From: a virus
Length of the DNA stretch: 64,000 nt
Virus record (IMG/VR): IMGVR_UViG_3300044464_000108
Coordinates: 1 to 64,000 of that record
Direction: 5' to 3' (one strand)
The position numbers and the translations under genes were made by a program. Below, in pieces: positions 3,459 to 53,373 of this stretch. How positions within the stretch are numbered: the stretch's first letter is position 1; every line of letters starts with the position of its first letter. The notes below the pieces were generated by a model. That model was not told the origin of the DNA, made no database searches, and was given only the letters and a program-made list of their open reading frames with translations.

Positions 3459-4159
3459 ACACCCAAGGCCGGGGCAAGTTCATTGTCCTCGAAGGCATCG
3501 ACGGCAGCGGCAAGAGCCGACAAGCGACGTTGCTCGCGCAATACCTCAACCTCGCGGGCGTCGATGTCGAACCGACGGGGCACGACTTCGGCAAGCTCAT
3601 TCGAGCAGCGCTAAGCGGTGCTCGGAAGTTCGATCCGACAGCGCTCGCCCTGCTCTTCGCAACGGATCGAATCGAGCATTCGATCGAGATCTCGCGTCGG
3701 CTTGTTCGTGGCGAGAACGTGGTCGGCGATCGGTATGCCCTTTCCAACCTCGTGTACTACGCCGCGGGAACCCATGGGCCCCTGTTCGGTCCGGGGTTCA
3801 TCGAGCGCCTGAACTGGATCGCGCATGCGAACGAGCACGCCATTGCCCCCGACCTTTATGTCGTGCTCGATGTGCCGGTCGACGTTGCCCTTGCACGGCT
3901 TCAAGCCTCCGATAAACCCCGGCGGGAGCTCTTCGAGCACAAGGCGTTTCTCGAACGTGCCGAGACTTGCTATCGGCATGCGGAGCTTGTCCTTCGGCCG
4001 AAGAACCTCGGCGAGCCGGTACCCAATTCGGTGCAGCACAAGGTGCAAATCGTCCACGTCTCGGGGGTTGGCCGATGGCACGACGTGCAAGCGCGCATCG
4101 TCGAAGCGATCCACCGCTACCTAGGGGACTTCGTTCCGCTGTCGACCGTGAGCGCCTAG
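3455..4159 (+). CDS. tmk: Thymidylate kinase (dTMP kinase)
   Basis: Phosphorylates dTMP to dTDP with ATP for phage DNA synthesis. Residues 14-21 are the P-loop GIDGSGKS. EPTG about 20 residues later matches the substrate-binding EPxG segment, and VGDRY (about residue 91) is the DR(Y/F) motif that contacts dTMP. Length (234 aa) is near the usual 200-230. The start is TTG inside the TGA overlap of the preceding gene, an unusual start codon here; no better in-frame start keeps the first strand. It is separated from the replication module, which lies 50 kb away. Confidence 0.92.
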   Translation: MNTQGRGKFIVLEGIDGSGKSRQATLLAQYLNLAGVDVEPTGHDFGKLIRAALSGARKFDPTALALLFATDRIEHSIEISRRLVRGENVVGDRYALSNLVYYAAGTHGPLFGPGFIERLNWIAHANEHAIAPDLYVVLDVPVDVALARLQASDKPRRELFEHKAFLERAETCYRHAELVLRPKNLGEPVPNSVQHKVQIVHVSGVGRWHDVQARIVEAIHRYLGDFVPLSTVSA

Positions 4160-4198: not shown

Positions 4199-5704
4199 GT
4201 GTCCAAATTCATCCTGATCAATGCCGTACGGCTCGGAGCGGTGGGTGTTCTTACCCCGGGCACACAGTTTGACGATGCCGTAGATCCGACAACGGTTGCC
4301 ACCGTCCGGGCAAATGGTGGCGTTCTTTACCCCGACATCGGAGATCAACTCACGGCAGCAGCCGAGATCGCGCGCAGCATGAAGGCGTCCGGCGTAGCGA
4401 CGGACACGATCGCGGCGTACATGGCGAGCGCCTTCCAAGCGCAGAACTCAACCCTTGGGAACGGGAGCAACGCTCAGCTCGTGTTCTATGTCGACCCTGT
4501 TAAGGGGAAGGACTCGAACCCCGGCACGCAAGCTCTGCCGGTGCAACGCATAGCTCAGCTTTGGCGTCTTCTCGTACCGACGGGGATGCAGCTTCCGCCG
4601 GGTGCGTCGAGTGCGGCATATGCGATCAACGTGTTGAGCAAGCCGCTCGCCGACGATCGACCCATCGGAACCATGCGCGTTGGATTCGGATGCACCCTCG
4701 ATTGGAACGCGGGTTCAACCACGATCAATTACACGGGGTCGATCACGGCGGTTACTCCCGCCGCAACGCCGGGCACCAACACGAGCCCCGACCTCACAGA
4801 TGCAGCTCTCACGGGTGGCACGTGGGCAGGCTTTCCAACTCAGCGCGGTCGTGTGCCGAGCGGAGTTCGAGCCGGTGCGATCTTTTATGGGCAGCACGAT
4901 CTAGGCGGTGCTCGAACACGAACGGCGAAAGCGATCATTCCTGATCCGAACGTGATCAATCAGATCAGCAAGCTTCCGACGTTGGCAATTGCGGACCCGA
5001 TTGTGATCGAGTCCCTCATGCAGGTGGAGGCGCTCCCGATGGACTACGACATCGACGACAGCGCAGACACGACCTTCATTGCAAAGGTGCGGTTCAATAA
5101 CTTCCAGTTCAACAACATGCAGTTGCCGACGAATAAAACCCAATTCGGCCTTGGGTTTTACGGGTGCATCTTCGCAACGTCTGCGGCATCGAGCTCGGGT
5201 GTTGGGTCGGGATCGAGTGCAAACTTCTTCGGATGCCTGTTTACGAAGAAGATCGTCAGTCCCCCCGGTTCAAGCCTATGGCTTGTCGCATGCTCGCTTT
5301 TGGCAGGTCTCACAGTTACACCCGGATCGATTGTGATCCTCGATGGGGACACGTGTTCGGATTCTGCAGCGGCGAACGACTCGATTGAGAACACCGGGGG
5401 GTTTCTGCAGTTGGCGCGGTGCAGCTCCTACGGGTCAATCTCGATTCCAGGAATCCGATGTTATGGTGACACGCTTGTGACGGGCACGGGGCTCTTCGGC
5501 TCAACAGCTTGCTACGGCTCGGGTAACGCGAACGTGGGCATGCATTGCCGAAGTGGTCACACCGTGCTGTACAGCACGATCCCCACCATTACAGGGGCGA
5601 ACAATGATGTTGTCGTTGGCAAGCAAGCGTCCCAAACGTGGGCAAGCTTTGCGACGAACGGCGCTCTCGATGTTTTGACGAATGCTGCGATCGTAAAGAC
5701 CTGA
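4199..5704 (+). CDS. Adhesin / tail-spike-like protein with shared anchor domain
   Basis: 501 aa, GTG start. Residues 1-90 (MSKFILINAVRLG..., then DDAVDP and GG.LYP) closely match the N-terminus of the protein at 15009, pointing to a common anchoring module. The rest is beta-rich. Residues about 315-440 show repeated short strands with turn Cys (FYGCIFA, FFGCLFT, LVACSLL, LARCSSY, GIRCYGD), the look of a right-handed parallel beta-helix as in phage tailspikes. A receptor-binding or glycan-recognising role is inferred. No catalytic motif is evident. Translation may be controlled by the hairpin just upstream. Confidence 0.65.
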   Translation: MSKFILINAVRLGAVGVLTPGTQFDDAVDPTTVATVRANGGVLYPDIGDQLTAAAEIARSMKASGVATDTIAAYMASAFQAQNSTLGNGSNAQLVFYVDPVKGKDSNPGTQALPVQRIAQLWRLLVPTGMQLPPGASSAAYAINVLSKPLADDRPIGTMRVGFGCTLDWNAGSTTINYTGSITAVTPAATPGTNTSPDLTDAALTGGTWAGFPTQRGRVPSGVRAGAIFYGQHDLGGARTRTAKAIIPDPNVINQISKLPTLAIADPIVIESLMQVEALPMDYDIDDSADTTFIAKVRFNNFQFNNMQLPTNKTQFGLGFYGCIFATSAASSSGVGSGSSANFFGCLFTKKIVSPPGSSLWLVACSLLAGLTVTPGSIVILDGDTCSDSAAANDSIENTGGFLQLARCSSYGSISIPGIRCYGDTLVTGTGLFGSTACYGSGNANVGMHCRSGHTVLYSTIPTITGANNDVVVGKQASQTWASFATNGALDVLTNAAIVKT

Positions 5705-6507: not shown

Positions 6508-6513
6508 TCTTCG

Positions 6514-6547
6514 CCGCCCTTCGGAAGATCGATCTTCCGAAGGGCGG
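6514..6547. repeat. Palindrome family, copy 3 (34-bp perfect)
   Basis: The longest perfect copy: 17-nt arms centred between 6530 and 6531, containing the exact 20-bp core at 6521-6540 plus matched CCGCCCT / AGGGCGG flanks. It lies 6 nt after a stop codon and 15 nt upstream of the -10-like CATAAT of the lipoprotein gene. Confidence 0.95.
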
Positions 6548-6562
6548 TCTCGACCTCCGCGG

Positions 6563-6574: not shown

Positions 6575-7138
6575 ATGAAACAATCAATCGGCTTTTTGGT
6601 TCTCATCGCGGGACTCGTCATCGGATGCGGTACCCCGTTCGAAGCGGGGCACTCCGCGCGAGCGGACTTGATCGAACAATCCAATGCCGGCACGGGCGGG
6701 GGGCATGACGGGGCCGGGGGTTCGGGTGGACGTGTTGACCCATCGTCCTCCGTCTCGAGCGGCTCCGGGGGGCAAGGCGGGGCTGCAAGCTCTGCCGAGA
6801 GCTCGAGCGCGGTTACGACGGGCGGCGGGAGCTGCAACCTTCCGCAACGCTGCAAGGATGCGGGCGTTCAGTGCGGCACCGTGACGGTTGATCCGGCGAA
6901 GTGCGGCGGGCAGATGTCGATGGACTGCGGTGTCTGTCCGGAAGGGGACACGTGCGGCGACAACGGGCATGTCCAGCAATGCGGTCATGCGTGTGCAAGC
7001 CTGTACGCCGCACAATGCCAAGCGGCTGGAGCACCTTTCGTGGGTGGCGGTTACAGTGGCTTCTGTACGTTGCTCCCGAAGGATCAATGCTCTTGGACGG
7101 TGATCGACATGTCGACGGCCTTTTGGTGTTGCCCGTGA
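6575..7138 (+). CDS. Myxobacterial-type Cys-rich lipoprotein
   Basis: 187 aa. Residues 1-17 form a signal peptide ending in the lipobox VIGC, so Cys17 would be lipidated. A Gly/Ser linker (residues about 40-85) separates this from a Cys-rich domain. Its pattern (C..RCKDAGVQCG, CGGQMSMDCGVC, GDTCGDNG) matches the repeat module common in Polyangia surface lipoproteins, which is the best host clue in the window. A phage copy could alter the host surface (superinfection exclusion) or be virion-associated; both are inference. It has its own leaderless promoter beneath palindrome copy 3. Confidence 0.75.
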   Translation: MKQSIGFLVLIAGLVIGCGTPFEAGHSARADLIEQSNAGTGGGHDGAGGSGGRVDPSSSVSSGSGGQGGAASSAESSSAVTTGGGSCNLPQRCKDAGVQCGTVTVDPAKCGGQMSMDCGVCPEGDTCGDNGHVQQCGHACASLYAAQCQAAGAPFVGGGYSGFCTLLPKDQCSWTVIDMSTAFWCCP

Positions 7139-7488
7139 GCTCAAGTGAATCGAAGAAGCGCTTTCGTCTGAAGATGCAAGCCCTCAAGAAGCCGGGGTTC
7201 TCCGTTGAACTACCCGAATCTGAGACCGCTCGCTTCGGCATTCTGTACGTCAACGGTGCCGGCTCGAAGCTTGGGCTTGCGCTCTGTGAGCATGGGCTTC
7301 GCGAACTAGCGCGTCAGGCTCTTGCGATTGCGGATGCGAGACCATGCGGACATCCGGTGCATCCACCCGGAAAGAACATCGCATTTGTGGATCATTCGAG
7401 CGGGCTTGCATGGTCGGCACAAGTCGCGTGCGTGCATTGCCAGTTCGATACGAAGCACCCGGAGGTCGAGCTCGACGACGCGGGGTAA
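7135..7488 (+). CDS. Hypothetical protein, 117 aa
   Basis: GTG start in a GTGA overlap with the lipoprotein stop, so probably co-translated. It has a basic N-terminus, a helical middle and C-terminal Cys/His (PCGHPVHPP, then VACVHC) that could bind a metal: C-x-H-x3-H ... C-x2-C. No known family. It overlaps the next start (TAATG). Confidence 0.65.
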   Translation: MSSSESKKRFRLKMQALKKPGFSVELPESETARFGILYVNGAGSKLGLALCEHGLRELARQALAIADARPCGHPVHPPGKNIAFVDHSSGLAWSAQVACVHCQFDTKHPEVELDDAG

Positions 7489-7703
7489 TGCCGGAGTTCT
7501 TCCTCGACTTCTATGTGATCTTCAAGAACCCGCGCGACTACCCGAAGCACTTCGTCGTGCGGCAGTTCTGCGGTGTGCTCCCGACAATGAACTTCGCGAT
7601 CGTGCGCACCCTCGAAGAAGCTAGGCGCGTAATCCCAGAAGGGTGGGTCAACATCGGGCGGTTCGAAACTGACGAACCGCAGATCGTCGAAGTTTGGATC
7701 TGA
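7488..7703 (+). CDS. Conserved small phage protein, 71 aa
   Basis: Resembles a short protein family widespread in tailed phages, recognisable by an FFLDFYV..K.PRDYP..FVVR start, an LEEAR helix (here RTLEEARRVIP) and a C-terminal acidic 'P.IVE.W'. Function unknown as far as I know. The ATG overlaps the preceding stop, and the gene ends shortly before a class A promoter. Confidence 0.75.
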   Translation: MPEFFLDFYVIFKNPRDYPKHFVVRQFCGVLPTMNFAIVRTLEEARRVIPEGWVNIGRFETDEPQIVEVWI

Positions 7704-13880: not shown

Positions 13881-14669
13881 ATGCGATTCGGCTATCTACC
13901 CGACCCTTTTGATGCTCGCGACCGACTTCTTCGACGTGACTTGCTCGGCGTGCCGGCCGAGATGCCGCCTCCCGAGGCGTCCCTAAACAGCTTCCTCCCG
14001 CCGATCTTGGATCAGCAGAATGAAGACTGTACGGCTCACGCGACGTGGTACGCGCTGCACATCGCGGCTTCGAAAGCAGGCATCGAGCTCGAGCAGGTCT
14101 CGCGGCTGTTCCTCTACTGGAACGCGCGGAACTACCACAACGGGACGAACTTCGACGGCGGGACGTACATCCGAGCGGTCTTCAAGGCGCTCGGCAAGCT
14201 CGGCTTTTGCGATGAGGATTGGTGGCCGTACGGCGGTGAAGAGCTCGTGAACGAGCGACCCGAGATGGTTGCTTACGAGATGGCGATCGATCAGGTGATC
14301 GGGCTCGAGTACTACCGAATCGATTCAACCGGAGCGCAGCGCGTACTCGATGTGATGAACGCGATTCACCACGGGCACGCGGTGGTCTTCGGGATTCTCG
14401 TCGACAAGGGTTTCGTGCATGCAGAGCACGACCTTGAAGAACCGGTCTCGGAAGCCAACGCAACCGGCGGGCATGCGCTCACGATCACGGCGTATGACGA
14501 GAACGGGTTTTACGGGCCAAACTCGTGGGGCCCGGCGTGGAATGGGAACGGCTTCTATCGGATGTCGAAGCACTTCCTCGCGTCGGAAGCTCCGACCGAT
14601 CTGTGGGTTGTCGTCGCGGCTCCGCAATTCAGTGATGATCGACAGACGACCCCAAGAGGTGACCAGTGA
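13881..14669 (+). CDS. Papain-like (C1A family) cysteine peptidase
   Basis: 262 aa. The expected catalytic set is present in order: Gln (DQQNEDC, residues 45/46) for the oxyanion hole, nucleophile Cys50, His198 in GGHAL, and Asn214 in NSWG. The spacing is that of a mature papain domain with no propeptide, and there is no signal peptide. The Ser usually before the Cys is Asp here. Such enzymes are unusual in phage genomes. It could process virion proteins, act on host proteins, or aid entry. It has a leaderless promoter and is coupled to the lipoprotein gene that follows. Confidence 0.85.
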   Translation: MRFGYLPDPFDARDRLLRRDLLGVPAEMPPPEASLNSFLPPILDQQNEDCTAHATWYALHIAASKAGIELEQVSRLFLYWNARNYHNGTNFDGGTYIRAVFKALGKLGFCDEDWWPYGGEELVNERPEMVAYEMAIDQVIGLEYYRIDSTGAQRVLDVMNAIHHGHAVVFGILVDKGFVHAEHDLEEPVSEANATGGHALTITAYDENGFYGPNSWGPAWNGNGFYRMSKHFLASEAPTDLWVVVAAPQFSDDRQTTPRGDQ

Positions 14670-14998
14670 AAGCGATCGTTTTGATTGGGTTGCTCACGGT
14701 GTGCGGGTGCCGGATTCAATGCGCGAACGAACCCCCGGGCAAGGTCGGGTCCGGCGCATGTCCTAGCTCGAGCTCGGACCCCATCCGACCGACACCCATC
14801 CCGCCAACACCGGAGCAATGCGGCGCGGCTTGCCATCGTTACGAAGAGCTCGGGTGCGTGCCGGAGAGCCTCGGGAGCCCGAAGGGTTTATCGTGCCGGG
14901 AGGTTTGCGCGAAAGCGTCAGCCGAAGGGATCGACATCACAAGCAACGGTTGCGTCGCAACCGCGAAGAGCTGCGCAGACGCGCGAAAGTGCAGGTAG
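14666..14998 (+). CDS. Small Cys-rich lipoprotein
   Basis: 110 aa, GTG start overlapping the peptidase stop, with AAGAGGTGA upstream. Residues 1-15 look like a lipoprotein signal (VLIGLLTVCGC; either Cys could be the lipidation site). A Ser/Pro-rich linker leads to a domain with paired Cys (EQCGAACHRYEELGC, LSCREVC, NGCVATAKSC). The arrangement is compatible with a disulfide-bonded outer-membrane lipoprotein. An o-spanin role is conceivable, but it is 33 kb from the endolysin. Confidence 0.65.
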   Translation: MKAIVLIGLLTVCGCRIQCANEPPGKVGSGACPSSSSDPIRPTPIPPTPEQCGAACHRYEELGCVPESLGSPKGLSCREVCAKASAEGIDITSNGCVATAKSCADARKCR

Positions 14999-15008
14999 GA
15001 GAAACCCC

Positions 15009-15671
15009 ATGGCTAAGTTCTTTTTGATCAACAACCTCAGGCTCGGCATCGCGTTCTTTGAAGCGAGCCAAACGCTCGACGATGCGGTGGATCCCGTAGC
15101 GGCAATCCGGGCGGCCGGCGGCATTCTTTGGCCGGTCGCTGACGCGGGTGTGGCTGCAGCAGCGGCGAACGGTCAGACGCTCAAGCTGCAAGGGGCTCCG
15201 CCCGAAGACGTTCAAGGGATCATGGTTGCAGCGCTCGAAGCGTCGATCTCGAACATGGTCCAAGGACAGCGCTCGGTGACGATTACGCAAGCCGCAAACC
15301 TTGCGGGACTCGGGGCCGGCGTGAAGACGCTCGACGTCAACGTTGGGCTCGTGCTTCCGACGGGAGCACGTCTCACGAGTCCCCCAACGCTCGAAACCGT
15401 AACCCTCTTCGACGACGCGGCGCACGGTACGTATGCCGTCATCGTCGGCACGACGGTCGGCGGAAACGAGATCGCGACTACTCAAAGCGTTGCGGCAGGT
15501 CAAACCGGGTTTCCCAAGATCATGACGGCCGGTGCGGCAGGCTTTCCACAAGCGTTGCAGAGCGCGGTGCAGGTCAAGGCACGGCTCACGTCATCCGTCG
15601 ATCTCAACACGGCAACGGTCGGAGCCGTGACGATCGTTCTTGGGTTCGTCGTTCCTTCGGCGTTCCTCTAA
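15009..15671 (+). CDS. Adhesin-type protein sharing the anchor domain of 4199
   Basis: 220 aa, ribosome site AGGTAGGAG. Residues 1-90 repeat the N-terminal module of the 4199 protein (KF.LIN..RLG, DDAVDP, AAGG.L.P). Residues 95-220 form an unrelated beta-rich domain. The paired genes look like one attachment module with two different tips, a common way for phages to display alternative receptor-binding proteins. Confidence 0.65.
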   Translation: MAKFFLINNLRLGIAFFEASQTLDDAVDPVAAIRAAGGILWPVADAGVAAAAANGQTLKLQGAPPEDVQGIMVAALEASISNMVQGQRSVTITQAANLAGLGAGVKTLDVNVGLVLPTGARLTSPPTLETVTLFDDAAHGTYAVIVGTTVGGNEIATTQSVAAGQTGFPKIMTAGAAGFPQALQSAVQVKARLTSSVDLNTATVGAVTIVLGFVVPSAFL

Positions 15672-16619: not shown

Positions 16620-18832
16620 GCATGATGATGCCGCTCATGTCGGATCCCGTTTTGCGGGGCAAGAACGGCGATACGTACGCCGTCTCGAGCTTCGGCACGA
16701 ACGCGACGACGTTTGGACCTGACTTCAAGGTCAACGATCTTTGGAACACCGATCGCCGGAAGGAACTCACTTACCGCGAGACGTTCTTCAAGTGCACACA
16801 GCACGATCACAAGGCGTTCAACTTCAACGGCTCGACGATCAAACCGGGACCGGTTTGGACACAGCCCTTGCTCTCGAGCGCGCAGATCACCCATTACGTG
16901 CCGCTTGATGCAAGGCGCCCGAGCTCGCCGGTGCGCATCTCGAAGAAGATCGTGAAGGACTTCACCACCCTCGTGTTCGGGCACGGGCGCTTTCCGACGA
17001 TCAAAGTCGTGGGGGACCCGGAGACACAGGACTTCTGCACGGCGCTATCCAAGGCGCAGAAGCTCCCGACGATCATGCTTCGTGCGCGGGACATCGGCGG
17101 GAGCGTTGGCACGGTCGGGCTCTCGTGGCGGTTCTACGCCGGCAAGCCGAGGACGCTTCCCCACAACGGCAAGAACCTGTTCGTGCACGAATGGGAGGAT
17201 CGCGAAGAGCTCATCCCGTCCCACGTGTCCGAGATCTATCAAGTCAAACGCGAGGAGTTCGACCCGAAGAAGAAGATGGTTGTCGATCGCATCTACTGGC
17301 ATCGACGGGATTGGACGCCGCTCGCCGACGTTCTGTTCGTGGATACGCCGGTCGACGATGACAATCCGGAATGGGTTGTCGATGAAGCGCACATCCACGG
17401 TGACGGCTTCTGTCACTTCGTGTGGATCCAGAACATCCCCGACGACGAGAACATCGACGGCGAGCCGGATTACGAAGACATCTACGAGAATTGCAACACG
17501 CTCGACGTCTTGAATTCGGTGCTCGCGAAGGGTGCCACGCTGAATCTCGATCCCACCCTTGTGCTCAAGATGGATCCCGACCTCGTAAAACGCACGGCGG
17601 TGCGGAAGGGATCAGAGAACGCGCTCATCGTCGGGCCCGACGGAAACGCGAGTTACATGGAGCTCGCCGGGACGAGCATCTCGGTTGGGATCGCACTCGT
17701 AGACAAGGAACGCGCTCAAGCGCTCGAGACCGCGCAATGCGTTGCGCCGGACCCCGACACGATTGCAGCGGCGGGGCTCTCGAGCGTTGCGATTCGCGCG
17801 ATCTATCAAGGCATGCTCGGCGCGGGGGACGTGCGCCGGACGCAATACGGAACGGGGATCGAACGTCTGCTCGAGCAGCAGGTTGCAAGCTCGCGCCGCA
17901 AGCTGAATGTCGACGATGCATCTACGCCGGAAGATGAGTCCGAAGGGTCGGCGGTCGAAGTCGAATACGACGAAGAGACAGGCGAAGAGACTCCCGTCGA
18001 GTACTACCTGAACCTTCCTCCCCGGGTTGTTGTGTCCGACGTGCGGGACGAGCACGGCGAACCGACGGGCGAGGTAGAGACGAAGTACATCGAACGTCGC
18101 CCGGGGGCCGGCGGACAGATCGAGTGCGATTGGCCGGAGTACTTCCCCGATACCGCGACCGATCAGAAGGATCGAACCTCGACGAATGCGGCAGCGGCGG
18201 GAGGGAAAGCGGTTATGTCGCATCGCTCCGCAGTTGAGATGACGGCGAAGAGCTTCGGGCTCGATCCGACCGAAGAATGGACGGCTGTCTCGAAGCAAGT
18301 GCAAGCCGAGCGGGATGCCGAGTTGCAGATGTTCCCCGGGACCGGCGGCGAAGTCGTCGATCGAAACCAACTCCCGCCGGGAGCTGACGAGCTCGGACCG
18401 GCCGGACATGAGCAACCCGATGGGACAGCCGACCCGCAAAGCGACCCCGTTGTTGTCGTAGGAGGCCGCGGGGGGTTCGCTGAAGCTTCGGCAGCATCGG
18501 CAACAGCGAAAGTGCAGATGACCCAACTCACGAAGGTGCTCACGATGAACGAGCTTCGTGCAGCGGCCGGCGTGGGCAAGCTCATGATCCCGGGCACGAA
18601 TACGCCGGATCCCGATGGGGATCTCGTCATGGCGGAATTCGAGGCGAAGCGATGTGCCAAGGGCAAGGTTGTCGGCGAAGCCGAAGCTGCCGACGAGGTA
18701 CCCCCGCCCGGGGATGCTGCAGGGGTTCAAACCGCTCCGGCGCTTCCGAAGGGGGGCAAGGAAGCTCCCGTTTCCCGGAGCGCTCAAAAGGGCGCTCAGA
18801 GCCCCGGAACGAGCTTCCCGCCTGAGGAGTGA
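16616..18832 (+). CDS. Portal protein
   Basis: 738 aa. Dodecameric portal proteins of this size sit at the capsid vertex through which DNA enters. Features consistent with this: an N-terminal helical/beta wing; a middle with repeated acidic-aromatic segments; the stretch from about residue 290 (CNTLDVLNSVLAKGATLNLDPTLVLK) typical of portal clip/stem regions; and a long acidic, disordered C-terminus (residues about 590-738). It lies before a Mu F-like head protein, as in many phages. Start ATG overlaps the previous stop. The assignment rests on order and pattern. Confidence 0.7.
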   Translation: MSMMMPLMSDPVLRGKNGDTYAVSSFGTNATTFGPDFKVNDLWNTDRRKELTYRETFFKCTQHDHKAFNFNGSTIKPGPVWTQPLLSSAQITHYVPLDARRPSSPVRISKKIVKDFTTLVFGHGRFPTIKVVGDPETQDFCTALSKAQKLPTIMLRARDIGGSVGTVGLSWRFYAGKPRTLPHNGKNLFVHEWEDREELIPSHVSEIYQVKREEFDPKKKMVVDRIYWHRRDWTPLADVLFVDTPVDDDNPEWVVDEAHIHGDGFCHFVWIQNIPDDENIDGEPDYEDIYENCNTLDVLNSVLAKGATLNLDPTLVLKMDPDLVKRTAVRKGSENALIVGPDGNASYMELAGTSISVGIALVDKERAQALETAQCVAPDPDTIAAAGLSSVAIRAIYQGMLGAGDVRRTQYGTGIERLLEQQVASSRRKLNVDDASTPEDESEGSAVEVEYDEETGEETPVEYYLNLPPRVVVSDVRDEHGEPTGEVETKYIERRPGAGGQIECDWPEYFPDTATDQKDRTSTNAAAAGGKAVMSHRSAVEMTAKSFGLDPTEEWTAVSKQVQAERDAELQMFPGTGGEVVDRNQLPPGADELGPAGHEQPDGTADPQSDPVVVVGGRGGFAEASAASATAKVQMTQLTKVLTMNELRAAAGVGKLMIPGTNTPDPDGDLVMAEFEAKRCAKGKVVGEAEAADEVPPPGDAAGVQTAPALPKGGKEAPVSRSAQKGAQSPGTSFPPEE

Positions 18833-27134: not shown

Positions 27135-27150
27135 GGCGGGAGGAATGATG

Positions 27151-27465
27151 ATGCGAATTCAATACTTGCGAGCGGGCTTTTCCGTTGCAGCGGTGGTCTT
27201 CGCGACCATGGCGATCGGTGCAACCTATCAAGGCATGCTGGGATGCACGCCACACGAGGTCAATCAGGTCGCAAAGACCGTGACGGATGCAGCATGCACG
27301 GAGCTCGAGATCATTCGGCCAAACAACACCGTGAAAATGGTGTGTGTGGTCGCGACCGAGCTCGAGCACTTGGTCGATATCCTTGGAGTCGAAAAGGTCC
27401 AAGCGATGGCAAAGACTCCCGAGGGCAAGGCGCTGATTGTGGCGCTCGCTCGAAAGGGGATCTGA
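27151..27465 (+). CDS. Membrane-anchored or lipoprotein-like protein, 104 aa
   Basis: Three consecutive ATG codons occur; 27151 has the best spacing from GGGAGG. Residues 8-30 form one hydrophobic segment ending MLGC, a plausible but long lipoprotein signal; otherwise it is a signal anchor. The rest is helical with three more Cys. A membrane protein inside the neck gene cluster is unexpected; it may be an accessory gene. Confidence 0.65.
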   Translation: MRIQYLRAGFSVAAVVFATMAIGATYQGMLGCTPHEVNQVAKTVTDAACTELEIIRPNNTVKMVCVVATELEHLVDILGVEKVQAMAKTPEGKALIVALARKGI

Positions 27466-48376: not shown

Positions 48377-49708
48377 ATGCGTGCTTCCGATTACATCGAG
48401 CAGCTTCCCGAACAAGCCGGACCCGAGCGGGAACGGAAGATCCTCGAATGGGCAATCAAGGGGCAGCTCCGCCCGATCGAATGGGCCCAAGTGCGGTCAG
48501 GGCGCGCGGTGTTTCAAGTGTCCGCCGACGGGCTCAAGGTCGGCGATGAGAACGATTCCGTTCGATTGAACGCCTGCCACGCGACGGCGCAGCAGCTCGC
48601 CGACATCCTTGGTGTGAGGCTTCCGACGACGAAGATTGAAGACCTCGCTTGGGCTCAAGCGCCGCTCAGGATCAAGCCGCAGATCCAAACGCCGGACGCG
48701 GCGATGAGCAACACGAGTCGCATGGTGCAGCACAGCCGGGCGATCGATGCGATTCAGGCGTCGATCCAATCAATGCCCGAAAGCCAGAAGCAGTTTCTGC
48801 GAACCGCCGGCAAGGTTTGGGCGCTGACGAATCGACTCGAAGGCAACCCCGGGCGAGCCGCAAACTACGGTTGGCACGATCGCGGTGCTCCGAACGGCAA
48901 GTGTTGGCAACCGCTCGGACTCGCGCACAACCTCCGGCACGTCGACTATTCGCAAAACCTCTTTTTCGTACACCCGCTCGTCGACATCGAAGGGGTGAAC
49001 TACGGCTACGAAGAAGTCCTAACGACTCCCGCGTTCGCTCAATACGCGAGCGATGAAGGCGTGCTTCGGATCACGCGACATCCCGGCGTGAGTCCGGACC
49101 ATGGCGACATCCTGCATACGCTTCTCCCGCCGCCCTTGCTTGGGTGCGAGGGGCCCGCCGAAGACCCGGGGGTTATCCCGTTCGTGCAGGCGTTTCACTA
49201 CCGCAAGGCGGATCGCAAGGACGTGCGCGTGCTCGTCGTGCACGACACCGAGACCCCGCAAACTGTCACAAGCGCCGAAGTCATTGCCGCGACGTTCGCA
49301 AGCAAAGCTTCGCCCATGGCTTCCCCGACGTACGCCGTCGATGTGGATTCGTGCGTGCAGATGGTGCGCGACGAAGACGTGGCTTTCCACGTCGGAGCTC
49401 CCGCAAACGATTGGAGCGTCGGGATCGAGCATGCCGGCTATGCGCGATACTCCGCGGAGGATTGGGGGAGCATCTACTCGAGAGCGATGCTCCGTCGGTC
49501 CGCTGGACTTGCGGCTCGCATCTGCCGCAAGTGGGGGATCCCGCCGGTGTTCCTAACGGCCGCCCAACTCCGAGATCCTTCGGCGCGCGGCATCACGACG
49601 CACAAGCAGATCAGCGATGCGTTTCACGGGTCGAACCATTGGGATCCCGGTCCGGGCTTCCCGATCCTTTGGTACGTGAACGCGGTCGCTTGCGCTCTCG
49701 CGGCGTAG
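48377..49708 (+). CDS. Endolysin: N-acetylmuramoyl-L-alanine amidase
   Basis: 443 aa, leaderless. Residues about 280-443 are an Amidase_2 (PGRP-like) zinc amidase: VRVLVVHDTE supplies the first zinc His, EHAGYA the central region, and NHWDPGPGFP the last His with the Asp/Pro loop. It would cut the bond between muramic acid and the stem peptide at the end of infection. The N-terminal 270 residues (with WALTNRLEGNPGRAANYGWHD) are an extra domain of unknown role, perhaps cell-wall binding or a second activity. No signal peptide, so it needs the holin. Confidence 0.88.
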   Translation: MRASDYIEQLPEQAGPERERKILEWAIKGQLRPIEWAQVRSGRAVFQVSADGLKVGDENDSVRLNACHATAQQLADILGVRLPTTKIEDLAWAQAPLRIKPQIQTPDAAMSNTSRMVQHSRAIDAIQASIQSMPESQKQFLRTAGKVWALTNRLEGNPGRAANYGWHDRGAPNGKCWQPLGLAHNLRHVDYSQNLFFVHPLVDIEGVNYGYEEVLTTPAFAQYASDEGVLRITRHPGVSPDHGDILHTLLPPPLLGCEGPAEDPGVIPFVQAFHYRKADRKDVRVLVVHDTETPQTVTSAEVIAATFASKASPMASPTYAVDVDSCVQMVRDEDVAFHVGAPANDWSVGIEHAGYARYSAEDWGSIYSRAMLRRSAGLAARICRKWGIPPVFLTAAQLRDPSARGITTHKQISDAFHGSNHWDPGPGFPILWYVNAVACALAA

Positions 49709-51019: not shown

Positions 51020-51661
51020 ATGCAAGACTACGACGAGATCATCAACCGACCTCCCATGCCGATTCCGTTAACGCCCTTGCAGCCCATCGGCTTCGAATCG
51101 GCAGACGGGGATTGCTTACGACTGCAGCAGTACATCGACACCCATCCTTCGGTAGAGGGAGCTTTTCAACAGCGACAACTTCTCGCACGAGCTGGATGTT
51201 TCGGCAGGGTGGAGCGCTCGCAGCATCGGGGGAGCATCGAATATGAACTCGTCGTGTCGCTTCTTCAGGCTGTGAGGATTCGGGGGTTTCCGATCCCGAT
51301 TGAGTTTCTCGTCGTCGACTTGGCCAAGCCTGGGTCGAAAGAAAACTTCGGCTGTATTGAGGTCGAGGTTGTGATCCATGTCCTTCATCGCGACACGGGG
51401 GAGCCGACCCGTGTCACTTCACGGAATTCGATCTCGGTCGATCTAATCCACAGAAGTACAGCCCAAGAGATCTTGGATCGGATGATCCTCTTCACGGTTC
51501 GCGAGCTCGTGATTCACGAGCTTGAAGAGTGCACGTACTTCGATGGGCACCGATTGAGCGAACCTCACACCGACTCGGTAATGCCGACAGAGAACCAACT
51601 TGACCCGGTTGCGGCGTGGGAGCGCCGTCGGGCTCAAACCAACATCAAGGGAGGCCCGTAG
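51020..51661 (+). CDS. Hypothetical protein, 213 aa
   Basis: ATG after GAAGGGGATGCG. Starts with a Pro-rich segment (NRPPMPIPLTPLQPIGF). The rest is alpha/beta with paired strands (FLVVDLAKPGS, CIEVEVVIHVLHRD) and a C-terminal helix-rich part. No motif known to me. Lies directly before the ParB-like gene. Confidence 0.7.
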   Translation: MQDYDEIINRPPMPIPLTPLQPIGFESADGDCLRLQQYIDTHPSVEGAFQQRQLLARAGCFGRVERSQHRGSIEYELVVSLLQAVRIRGFPIPIEFLVVDLAKPGSKENFGCIEVEVVIHVLHRDTGEPTRVTSRNSISVDLIHRSTAQEILDRMILFTVRELVIHELEECTYFDGHRLSEPHTDSVMPTENQLDPVAAWERRRAQTNIKGGP

Positions 51662-51663
51662 CC

Positions 51664-53373
51664 ATGCAAGAGACCTATATCGATGCTGCCGTTTGCAGCA
51701 TCCAAGAATCCCCGACGAACCCGCGCAAACATTACGACCCGGCGAAGATGACCGAGCTCATCGCGAGCGTGAAAGAGCACGGCATCATCACACCCGTTGT
51801 CGCGCGCTACGTGCGCGGAAGCACAGATATGCTCGAGCTCGTCTTCGGGCATCGACGACTTCGTGCCGCTCGCGCAGCGAAGCTCGATCACATCCCGACC
51901 ATCATCCGGGAGATGACCGACAAGGCCGTTCTCGAAGCGCAGCTCGTCGAGAACAGCCAACGCGAGGACGTGCACCCGCTCGAAGAGGCGGAAGGGTATC
52001 GGCAGCTCAAAGAGGTGCACGACTACACGATCGAAGATATCGCGCTCAAGGTCGGAAAAGACGCGAGCTACGTCTATTCGCGAATCAAATTGCTCGGTCT
52101 CTCCGACCTCGGCAAGCAAGCTTTCTTTGACGGGAAGATCAATGCATCGGTCGCGCTTCTCGTCGCGCGGATGCCGAGCTTCGAGCTTCAAGACAAGGCG
52201 CTGAAAGACATCGTGGGCGAAGGCGACGACGAGCCGATGAACGTGCAAGAGGCGCGGCGTTTTATTACCGCGCACTTCATGCTTCGGCTTGTGGACGCTC
52301 CCTTTCGAAAGGACGATCCAACCCTTGTCGAAGCGGCCGGCGCTTGCACGAAGTGTCCGAAGCGCACGGGCAATCAGAAGGAACTGTTTGCTGACGTCGA
52401 AGCGAAGGACACGTGCACCGACCCGAAGTGCTTCGAGTTGAAGCGGGGCGCGCATTGGGAGCGTGAGAAGGCGAAGGCAAAGCAGGAAGGCCGAAAGGTG
52501 CTTTCACCCGTCGAGACGAAACGACTCTTTCCCTACAACAACGGCTTGATGCCTCATAACTCCCCGTATGTGGCGCTCGACGAGCGCCCGATCGGCGAAG
52601 AGGCTGACAAGCCGTGGAAAGACATTCTCGGTAAGGACACCCCAAAGAGCGTGCTCGTGCTCGACCCGCTCGGCAACCCGCGCAACCTTGTTCTCAAGGC
52701 TGACGTGCTCGCAACCGAGAAGGTGCCCGAGCACATCCTTGACAGCGGAGCTCTGTCGACGGTCGTGCCGACGACACGACAGCAACGCGCGAAGGAGCGC
52801 GAACGGCTCGAGCAGGTGCAGACGATGAACGATGAGTCCATCGCCGATCTCATGAGTGCGATCGGCGGTCGGGGCATTCAGCTCGAGGGCTTCAAGATGC
52901 TCTTGAGTTCAATCCTTGAGAGCTCGCATTGGGCGAGCGTGCTTCGCGACATCACGCGGCGTCGAGGGCTCACGACGTCGAAGGATCTCATGCCTCGGGA
53001 TGCCGTGCGCGAGTACATCGAGCGGATGACCACGATCGAGGAATGCTTTGGGTTGCTTGTCGAAGCGACGGTCTTGCATGACTTGACCGGGGGTGTACCG
53101 CTGCAGAGCGTCGAGCTCATCGAAGGGTTTCGAAAGGTTTACAAGAACGAGGCTTTCGGTGTCGTGGGAACCCCGCCGAAGGCATCGAAGAAGAAGTCCC
53201 CCAAAGAGCTTTTTGCATGCGGCACGGTGCTTCCCAAGGCCGTCAAGACGGTCAAGATTCTTCTGTCCAAAGTCGCCGCTAAGCCGCCCAAGGCGAAAGC
53301 CAAAGCAAAGAAGAAGGCGAAGCCTGCATCGCCCAAGGGCAAGGCCTCAAAAGGCAAACCGAAGAAGCCTTAG
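51664..53373 (+). CDS. ParB/Spo0J-like DNA-binding protein
   Basis: 569 aa, GGGAGG ribosome site. Residues 10-90 carry the ParB N-terminal domain (IQESPTNPRKHYDPAKMTEL, GIITPVVARYV, FGHRRLRAARAAKL, with QLVENSQREDVHPLEEAEGY). Residues about 123-146 (TIEDIALKVGKDASYVYSRI) are the HTH. A four-Cys cluster at about 227-262 (CTKCPKRTGNQ...DTCTDPKC) suggests a zinc site. The tail is Lys/Ala/Pro-rich. True ParBs bind palindromic parS sites with a ParA partner, but no ParA is seen here, so a transcription or nucleoid role is equally possible. Confidence 0.85.
   Translation: MQETYIDAAVCSIQESPTNPRKHYDPAKMTELIASVKEHGIITPVVARYVRGSTDMLELVFGHRRLRAARAAKLDHIPTIIREMTDKAVLEAQLVENSQREDVHPLEEAEGYRQLKEVHDYTIEDIALKVGKDASYVYSRIKLLGLSDLGKQAFFDGKINASVALLVARMPSFELQDKALKDIVGEGDDEPMNVQEARRFITAHFMLRLVDAPFRKDDPTLVEAAGACTKCPKRTGNQKELFADVEAKDTCTDPKCFELKRGAHWEREKAKAKQEGRKVLSPVETKRLFPYNNGLMPHNSPYVALDERPIGEEADKPWKDILGKDTPKSVLVLDPLGNPRNLVLKADVLATEKVPEHILDSGALSTVVPTTRQQRAKERERLEQVQTMNDESIADLMSAIGGRGIQLEGFKMLLSSILESSHWASVLRDITRRRGLTTSKDLMPRDAVREYIERMTTIEECFGLLVEATVLHDLTGGVPLQSVELIEGFRKVYKNEAFGVVGTPPKASKKKSPKELFACGTVLPKAVKTVKILLSKVAAKPPKAKAKAKKKAKPASPKGKASKGKPKKP

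Follow-up and report, generated by a model that had tools for sequence, protein, structure and literature searches.

Among the closest described counterparts of the protein reported here are phage-encoded lipoproteins that act on outer-membrane receptors. Llp of phage T5 is a disulfide-containing superinfection-exclusion lipoprotein that jams FhuA and whose gene adjoins the receptor-binding protein gene, and the lipoprotein of phage Rtp (Rtp45) acts against LptDE; both bind their outer-membrane receptor from the inside and stop further adsorption (PMC9586334, PMC12685063). Myxobacterial prophages, for their part, carry lipoprotein toxins delivered by outer-membrane exchange (OME), along with cognate immunity genes (SitA; PMC5562445, PMC10047993). 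Sorting of lipoproteins in M. xanthus depends on residues close to the lipid anchor: Lys at +2 means retention in the inner membrane, and Ala at +7 is the signal by which FibA reaches the extracellular matrix (Bhat et al. 2011, PMC3222651).

Here we describe P0001, a 187-aa Cys-rich lipoprotein encoded by an uncultivated phage whose hosts are probably soil myxobacteria. Like Llp, Cor and Rtp45 it is a phage-encoded lipoprotein, and like the SitA toxins of Myxococcus prophages it is a lipoprotein on a myxobacterial mobile element. However, P0001, with 14 mature Cys besides the lipid Cys, is much larger and Cys-richer than Llp or Rtp45 (about 6–8 kDa), and no sequence relation to Llp, Cor or Rtp45 was detected in PHROGs (E ≤ 0.1). 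To our knowledge, few phages of Myxococcota outside Myxococcus have been described, and we know of no account of how they recognise their cells. A viral lipoprotein built on the host's surface module would offer a handle on the receptor and on superinfection exclusion outside coliphages, and also on surface-protein exchange between predatory, social bacteria and their viruses.

The phage and its lipoprotein gene

The window analysed comprises bases 1–64000 of the 92,033-base IMG/VR virus record IMGVR_UViG_3300044464_000108 (contig G000); the rest was read as two further stretches, L002 and L003. Both ends of the record carry nearly identical stretches of ~70 bases, so that it is probably complete. 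Judged by its terminase, capsid and replication genes, the record is a tailed phage; the latter include genes for a family B DNA polymerase (PolB), a DnaB-type helicase, and RecA-like and SbcCD-like proteins. Among the phage proteins scanned, none was recognisable as an integrase or a repressor. The genes used as landmarks are:

24.8 kb: N4-gp56-type capsid protein (family match)
48377–49708: amidase (domain match)
51616–53373: ParB-type protein (ParB N-terminal and ParB HTH domains)
85.9 kb: terminase, T7-type large subunit (NCBIfam match)

P0001 is encoded in the late region, with structural and tail-type genes around it, in the following setting:

4199–5704: tailspike candidate, one gene from the lipoprotein gene
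6513–6548, unstranded: palindrome/hairpin, after the stop codon of the upstream gene and ahead of the lipoprotein gene, core TCGGAAGATCGATCTTCCGA
6575–7138, + strand: Cys-rich lipoprotein gene (P0001, 187 aa), from intact ORF, lipobox and module HMM
6575–6625, + strand: type II (lipoprotein) signal peptide MKQSIGFLVLIAGLVIG, from sequence and lipobox scan
6626–6628: lipid-anchor Cys18, lipobox LVIG/C
6629–6832, + strand: Gly/Ser-rich linker (aa 19–86), 49% Gly+Ser counted from the lipid Cys
6833–6985, + strand: Myxococcota-type Cys module (aa 87–137), from HMM and alignment A1
6986–7135, + strand: C-terminal Cys-rich region (aa 138–187) ending in FWCCP, the WCC terminus being common to three other viral module lipoproteins
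7135–7488, + strand: downstream gene, 117 aa, whose GTG start overlaps the P0001 stop (GTGA)
7488–7703, + strand: next gene, 71 aa, TAATG overlap, weak phrog_1426 match

The reading frame contains no internal stop, and its start shows the hallmarks of a bacterial lipoprotein processed by Sec, Lgt and Lsp: a Lys in the n-region, a hydrophobic core (hydropathy 3.3), a lipobox and a Cys at +1 (MKQSIGFLVLIAGLVIG/C). The lipobox, Gly/Ser linker and Cys module that the initial annotation had reported for this gene were thus all recovered, the module at 24.4 bits. The mature protein carries Gly at +2 and Ala at +7. Not counting the lipidated residue it has 14 Cys, an even count that would allow seven disulfides. 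In the predicted structure the module alone is of fair confidence (pLDDT 83–87), and the model found no match in the PDB. Neither did P0001 match any family in PHROGs (E ≤ 0.1), NCBIfam, Pfam or PADLOC, and bacterial matches to its C-terminal region were only weak and short. The GTGA overlap suggests that the lipoprotein gene is probably cotranscribed with the downstream gene, for which no Pfam match was found, and with the TAATG overlap that follows it points to an operon probably headed by the lipoprotein gene.

A Cys module of Myxococcota type

Single-protein comparisons were of little use for placing the module. BLAST with P0001 returned weak matches both in 290 genomes of the host class (see below) and in 299 Pseudomonadota genomes, and these were partly composition-driven; tests based on a pattern and an HMM were therefore used instead. 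When the single protein was scanned against viral and genome contigs, no match came up, the 8-residue exact seeds being too strict.

The module spacing CGxCxxxxTCGxxGxxxxCG, sought as DNA in 84,980 species genomes, occurred at no fewer than 119 loci, of which 16 were discounted as low-complexity or out-of-frame. Among the matches listed, 101 of the 103 retained loci, counted by eye from record titles, come from records titled Myxococcota, Myxococcales, Archangiaceae, Polyangiaceae or similar, or Deltaproteobacteria; the two exceptions are a Rubrivivax MAG and a 'Proteobacteria' MAG. The pattern was found in 0 of 50,697 isolated phage records and in none of the plasmids scanned, and the exact spacing was absent from shuffles of the window. 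An HMM built from 197 modules, from genomes labelled almost entirely Myxococcota or Deltaproteobacteria and with P0001 left out of the build, scored P0001 at 24.4 bits (E=5.4e-6), while 2000 Cys-fixed shuffles reached 7.8 bits at most. Within alignment A1 (39 sequences), module identity is 33–48% with 14 invariant columns. By these sequence criteria the P0001 module is of Myxococcota type, in agreement with the myxobacterial type first proposed for it.

The resemblance extends to the layout. Like P0001, the Myxococcota proteins join a lipobox or secreted start to a Gly/Ser linker: a lipobox opens at least 13 of the 25 bacterial module ORFs whose 5' end could be read, and a similar Gly-rich linker is seen in the bacterial module lipoproteins L042, L068, L090, L136 and L139. 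The module of P0001 reads CNLPQRC..CGTVTVDPAKCGG..DCGVC..TCG..G....CG and matches the spacing of the Myxococcota consensus C..TC...G..CG...DGCGG.L.CG.C....TCGGGG..N.CG, although it carries two insertions, three and two residues long, that the usual form lacks. P0001 further differs from the Myxococcota proteins in having a single module in place of tandem repeats and in ending with WCCP, a type of terminus found in 1 of 82 bacterial module ORFs. No bacterial homologue spanning the whole of P0001 occurred in the genomes searched. Widespread as it is in Myxococcota genomes, the module is without a Pfam or NCBIfam model, and neither database gave a match for the module proteins scanned.

Counterparts in other viruses

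A first module pattern returned only low-complexity matches in IMG/VR; a second, covering the other half of the module, matched seven contigs, six of which (of 2.9 million in IMG/VR) encode module proteins. Together with the empty scan of isolated phages, this bears out the expectation that the module would not be common in other phages. The viral proteins are L198, L199, L200, L202 and L201/L203, the last two labels denoting the same protein. All five viral module proteins with a readable start read as lipoproteins, the lipobox of L199 (SIG/C) being atypical. L199, L200 and L202 share with P0001 the module, a Gly/Ser/Thr-rich linker and the WCC terminus, whereas L198 and L203 lack the linker or the WCC end; outside the module, identity to P0001 is low. 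The module score of L199 is no better than that of the best Cys-fixed shuffle, so it is the pattern, together with homology to L200, that places it among the module proteins. The WCC terminus closes four of the five viral proteins with a readable end against one of the 82 bacterial ORFs (Fisher p about 1e-5, a post hoc test that is indicative only, L199 and L200 being homologous).

The contig encoding L202 (G600) belongs, by sequence, to a phage related to the present one, with identities of 45% for the capsid protein, 39% for the sheath, 28% for the portal and 32% for the terminase. There the lipoprotein gene adjoins a macro-domain-like gene and head genes rather than a tail-fibre gene. The lipoproteins of two further contigs, G597 and G598 (L199 and L200), are homologous to each other (35% identity, E 2e-17), and both genes lie tail-to-tail with a gene of 1760–1795 aa, at most 70 bases away. 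These large genes are 54% identical between the two contigs and gave no family match; they look tail-fibre-like, with beta-helix-like repeats seen by eye at their end.

The initial annotation took the P0001 gene as likely to have been acquired from the host. A single, recent acquisition does not fit, since a whole-protein bacterial homologue was not found and viral counterparts, mostly WCC-ended, exist; from these sequences P0001 seems to belong to a viral type of long standing that has a bacterial module at its base. What the DNA shows directly is the gene with its signal peptide and linker, the homology of the module, and its recurrence in other viral contigs.

The upstream palindrome

The palindrome above the lipoprotein gene is predicted to fold into a strong 16-bp hairpin (−40.5 kcal/mol, z=−4.7). 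Its 20-base sequence (TCGGAAGATCGATCTTCCGA or near) has about 16 copies genome-wide, nearly always intergenic, at 24, 2978, 6521, 16419, 21925, 27115, 35967, 38699, 42654, 48319, 50904 and 58062 in the window, and outside it at 5583 and 16294 of L002 and at 3463 and 12986 of L003. It was absent from 290 host-class genomes and from the other viral contigs. The palindrome is thus a genome-wide intergenic element and not specific to the lipoprotein gene. Its copies may act as terminators, of an unusual kind, or as operators to which the ParB-type protein of the phage would bind, by analogy with the KorB operators on plasmid RK2 (PMC11790492); the ParB-type protein is possibly a KorB-like genome-wide regulator or a partition protein.

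While the palindrome noted earlier is thus real, the leaderless promoter proposed along with it was dropped: its sole basis was one hexamer, and no sigma70-type promoter was found upstream of the gene. A TANNNT/CATAAT hexamer follows four of the 16 palindrome copies at varying distance, a count close to that expected from base composition by our own estimate.

Host group

The best single host marker in the phage, judged by sequence, is a second lipoprotein:

88282–88926 (L003:9282–9926): lipoprotein MKIFLALMGMCIG/C of a myxobacterial family

Relatives 36–46% identical (E down to 4e-45) occur in 22 of the 193 genomes searched from the class that includes Minicystis rosea, and in 0 of 200 Pseudomonadota genomes; a wider profile of the family found no other viral copy. 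The phage terminase also has matches there, at 37% identity; among 50,697 isolated phages its best match reaches 26%. These two matches make a host in that class, Polyangia as judged from the centring on Minicystis, likely. The terminase-bearing elements in the host-class genomes examined are integrative elements without module lipoproteins. The module itself had also been read as a pointer to the host group; that group stands on the second lipoprotein and the terminase, but three of the viral module contigs have a GC content of 33–45%, so their hosts may differ and the module by itself does not fix the host.

Possible function of P0001

Expression of P0001, a place in the outer membrane or at the surface, disulfide bonding and receptor blocking are inferred. 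Our preferred reading, a tentative one given somewhat less than an even chance, is that P0001 is made late, goes to the outer membrane or surface as a lipoprotein, and there blocks the phage receptor and so excludes superinfection. The infected, probably myxobacterial, cell would make P0001, export it through Sec and lipidate it at Cys18. The protein would then be sent to the outer membrane, its disulfides forming in the oxidising envelope and its Gly/Ser linker keeping the Cys-rich head off the membrane. The absence of a Lys+2 retention signal and the presence of Ala+7 suggest the outer membrane or the matrix, Ala+7 being a single residue and the rule coming from another class. Late in infection, P0001 would bind the surface receptor used by the phage itself, or mask it, which would prevent superinfection and spare progeny virions from being lost on receptor-bearing cells or debris. 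Viral recurrence and the tail-fibre linkage in two contigs fit this role: the T5 Llp gene adjoins the receptor-binding protein gene, and the genes of the viral relatives in G597 and G598 adjoin a tail-fibre-like gene. Against it speak the larger size of P0001, its lack of family matches and the gene order in G600. In the present phage the tailspike candidate one gene away gave no family match, and its predicted model, with a pLDDT of 31, is too poor to use.

Other roles have to be weighed against receptor blocking. P0001 might be cargo (a 'moron' gene) that alters the surface of the infected or lysogenic host, and thereby adhesion, predation, matrix or signalling, without bearing on phage entry. 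In its favour, the host group has many surface lipoproteins with this module, Ala+7 suggests the matrix, and the phage also encodes the myxobacterial-family lipoprotein, a 688-aa secreted protein and another two candidate small lipoproteins, which together would mean that it alters the envelope broadly. The replication genes (PolB, DnaB, RecA-like, SbcCD-like), however, look virulent and the proteins scanned included no recognisable integrase or repressor, leaving little time for conversion; moreover, the downstream phage genes overlap the lipoprotein gene, which is not set apart like a typical moron. We consider this reading unlikely, if still a serious competitor. A mere passenger without selected function, picked up recently from host DNA or brought in by host contamination of the assembly, would account for a gene slightly richer in GC (63.8%) than the window (60.5%), but the frame is intact and forms part of an unbroken phage operon in which starts overlap, and the whole protein had no bacterial lookalike in the genomes searched while having counterparts in a related phage and other viral contigs; we give this account the lowest probability of all.

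A part in lysis, as outer-membrane spanin or lysis regulator, comes to mind because o-spanins are frequent among phage lipoproteins and the phage has an amidase (48377–49708) and small membrane-protein genes elsewhere. Yet the amidase region is ~40 kb away, no adjacent gene encodes a TM segment and hence no membrane-anchored i-spanin is a neighbour, and P0001, at 187 aa and rich in Gly, Ser and Cys, is neither short nor Pro-rich like an Rz1-like o-spanin, so we rate a lysis role as very improbable. We hold equally little expectation that P0001 is passed to neighbours by OME or shed to the matrix, as a SitA-like effector or a spreader of exclusion. Such transfer has its precedent in the SitA toxins and would suit the outer-membrane or matrix type of signal and the overlapping downstream gene. 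Unlike SitA loci, though, this one has no toxin domain (Pfam, NCBIfam), no SitB-like gene upstream, where the neighbour lacks a signal peptide, and no immunity-like match, nor any Pfam or NCBIfam domain, for the 7135–7488 gene; OME is also less certain outside Myxococcaceae, as Sorangium TraAB alleles failed in M. xanthus.

Receptor blocking might also be one instance of something wider, namely an undescribed class of surface lipoproteins in phages of myxobacteria and other hosts that travels with the tail fibre and blocks or disguises the receptor, possibly also that of neighbouring cells, reached by outer-membrane exchange or through the matrix. Its proposed layout would be a lipid anchor, a Gly/Ser stalk, a host-type Cys module and a WCC terminus; we regard this extension as speculative and rather doubtful. 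More generally, the occurrence of similar proteins in a few other uncultivated viruses suggests that infection by phages of the present group entails a remodelling of the host cell surface.

Other lipoprotein and surface genes

The lipobox scan yielded a further candidate:

14666–14998, + strand: second candidate Cys-rich lipoprotein, 110 aa, 12 Cys

Its gene overlaps (GTGA) an upstream papain-like peptidase gene (13881–14669), and weak matches to the lipoprotein occur in 2 of 174 host-class genomes. Viral contig G601 (301 kb) encodes a related peptidase (27%) at a distance of 6 kb from its module lipoprotein. Elsewhere, L003:3593–5659 encodes the secreted 688-aa protein, which has a CGDGVVNE..E.C motif, and overlaps (ATGA) the gene at L003:5656–5886 for a 76-aa lipoprotein with three DIPPDEQL repeats. 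A possible small lipoprotein at 27145–27465 has a signal region 76% identical over 58 bases to a stretch (17763–17820) of the portal-like gene. Lastly, the structural-type genes at 4199–5704 and 14685–15671 encode the same opening, M[SA]KF[IF]LIN..RLG, which suggests duplicated anchor domains.
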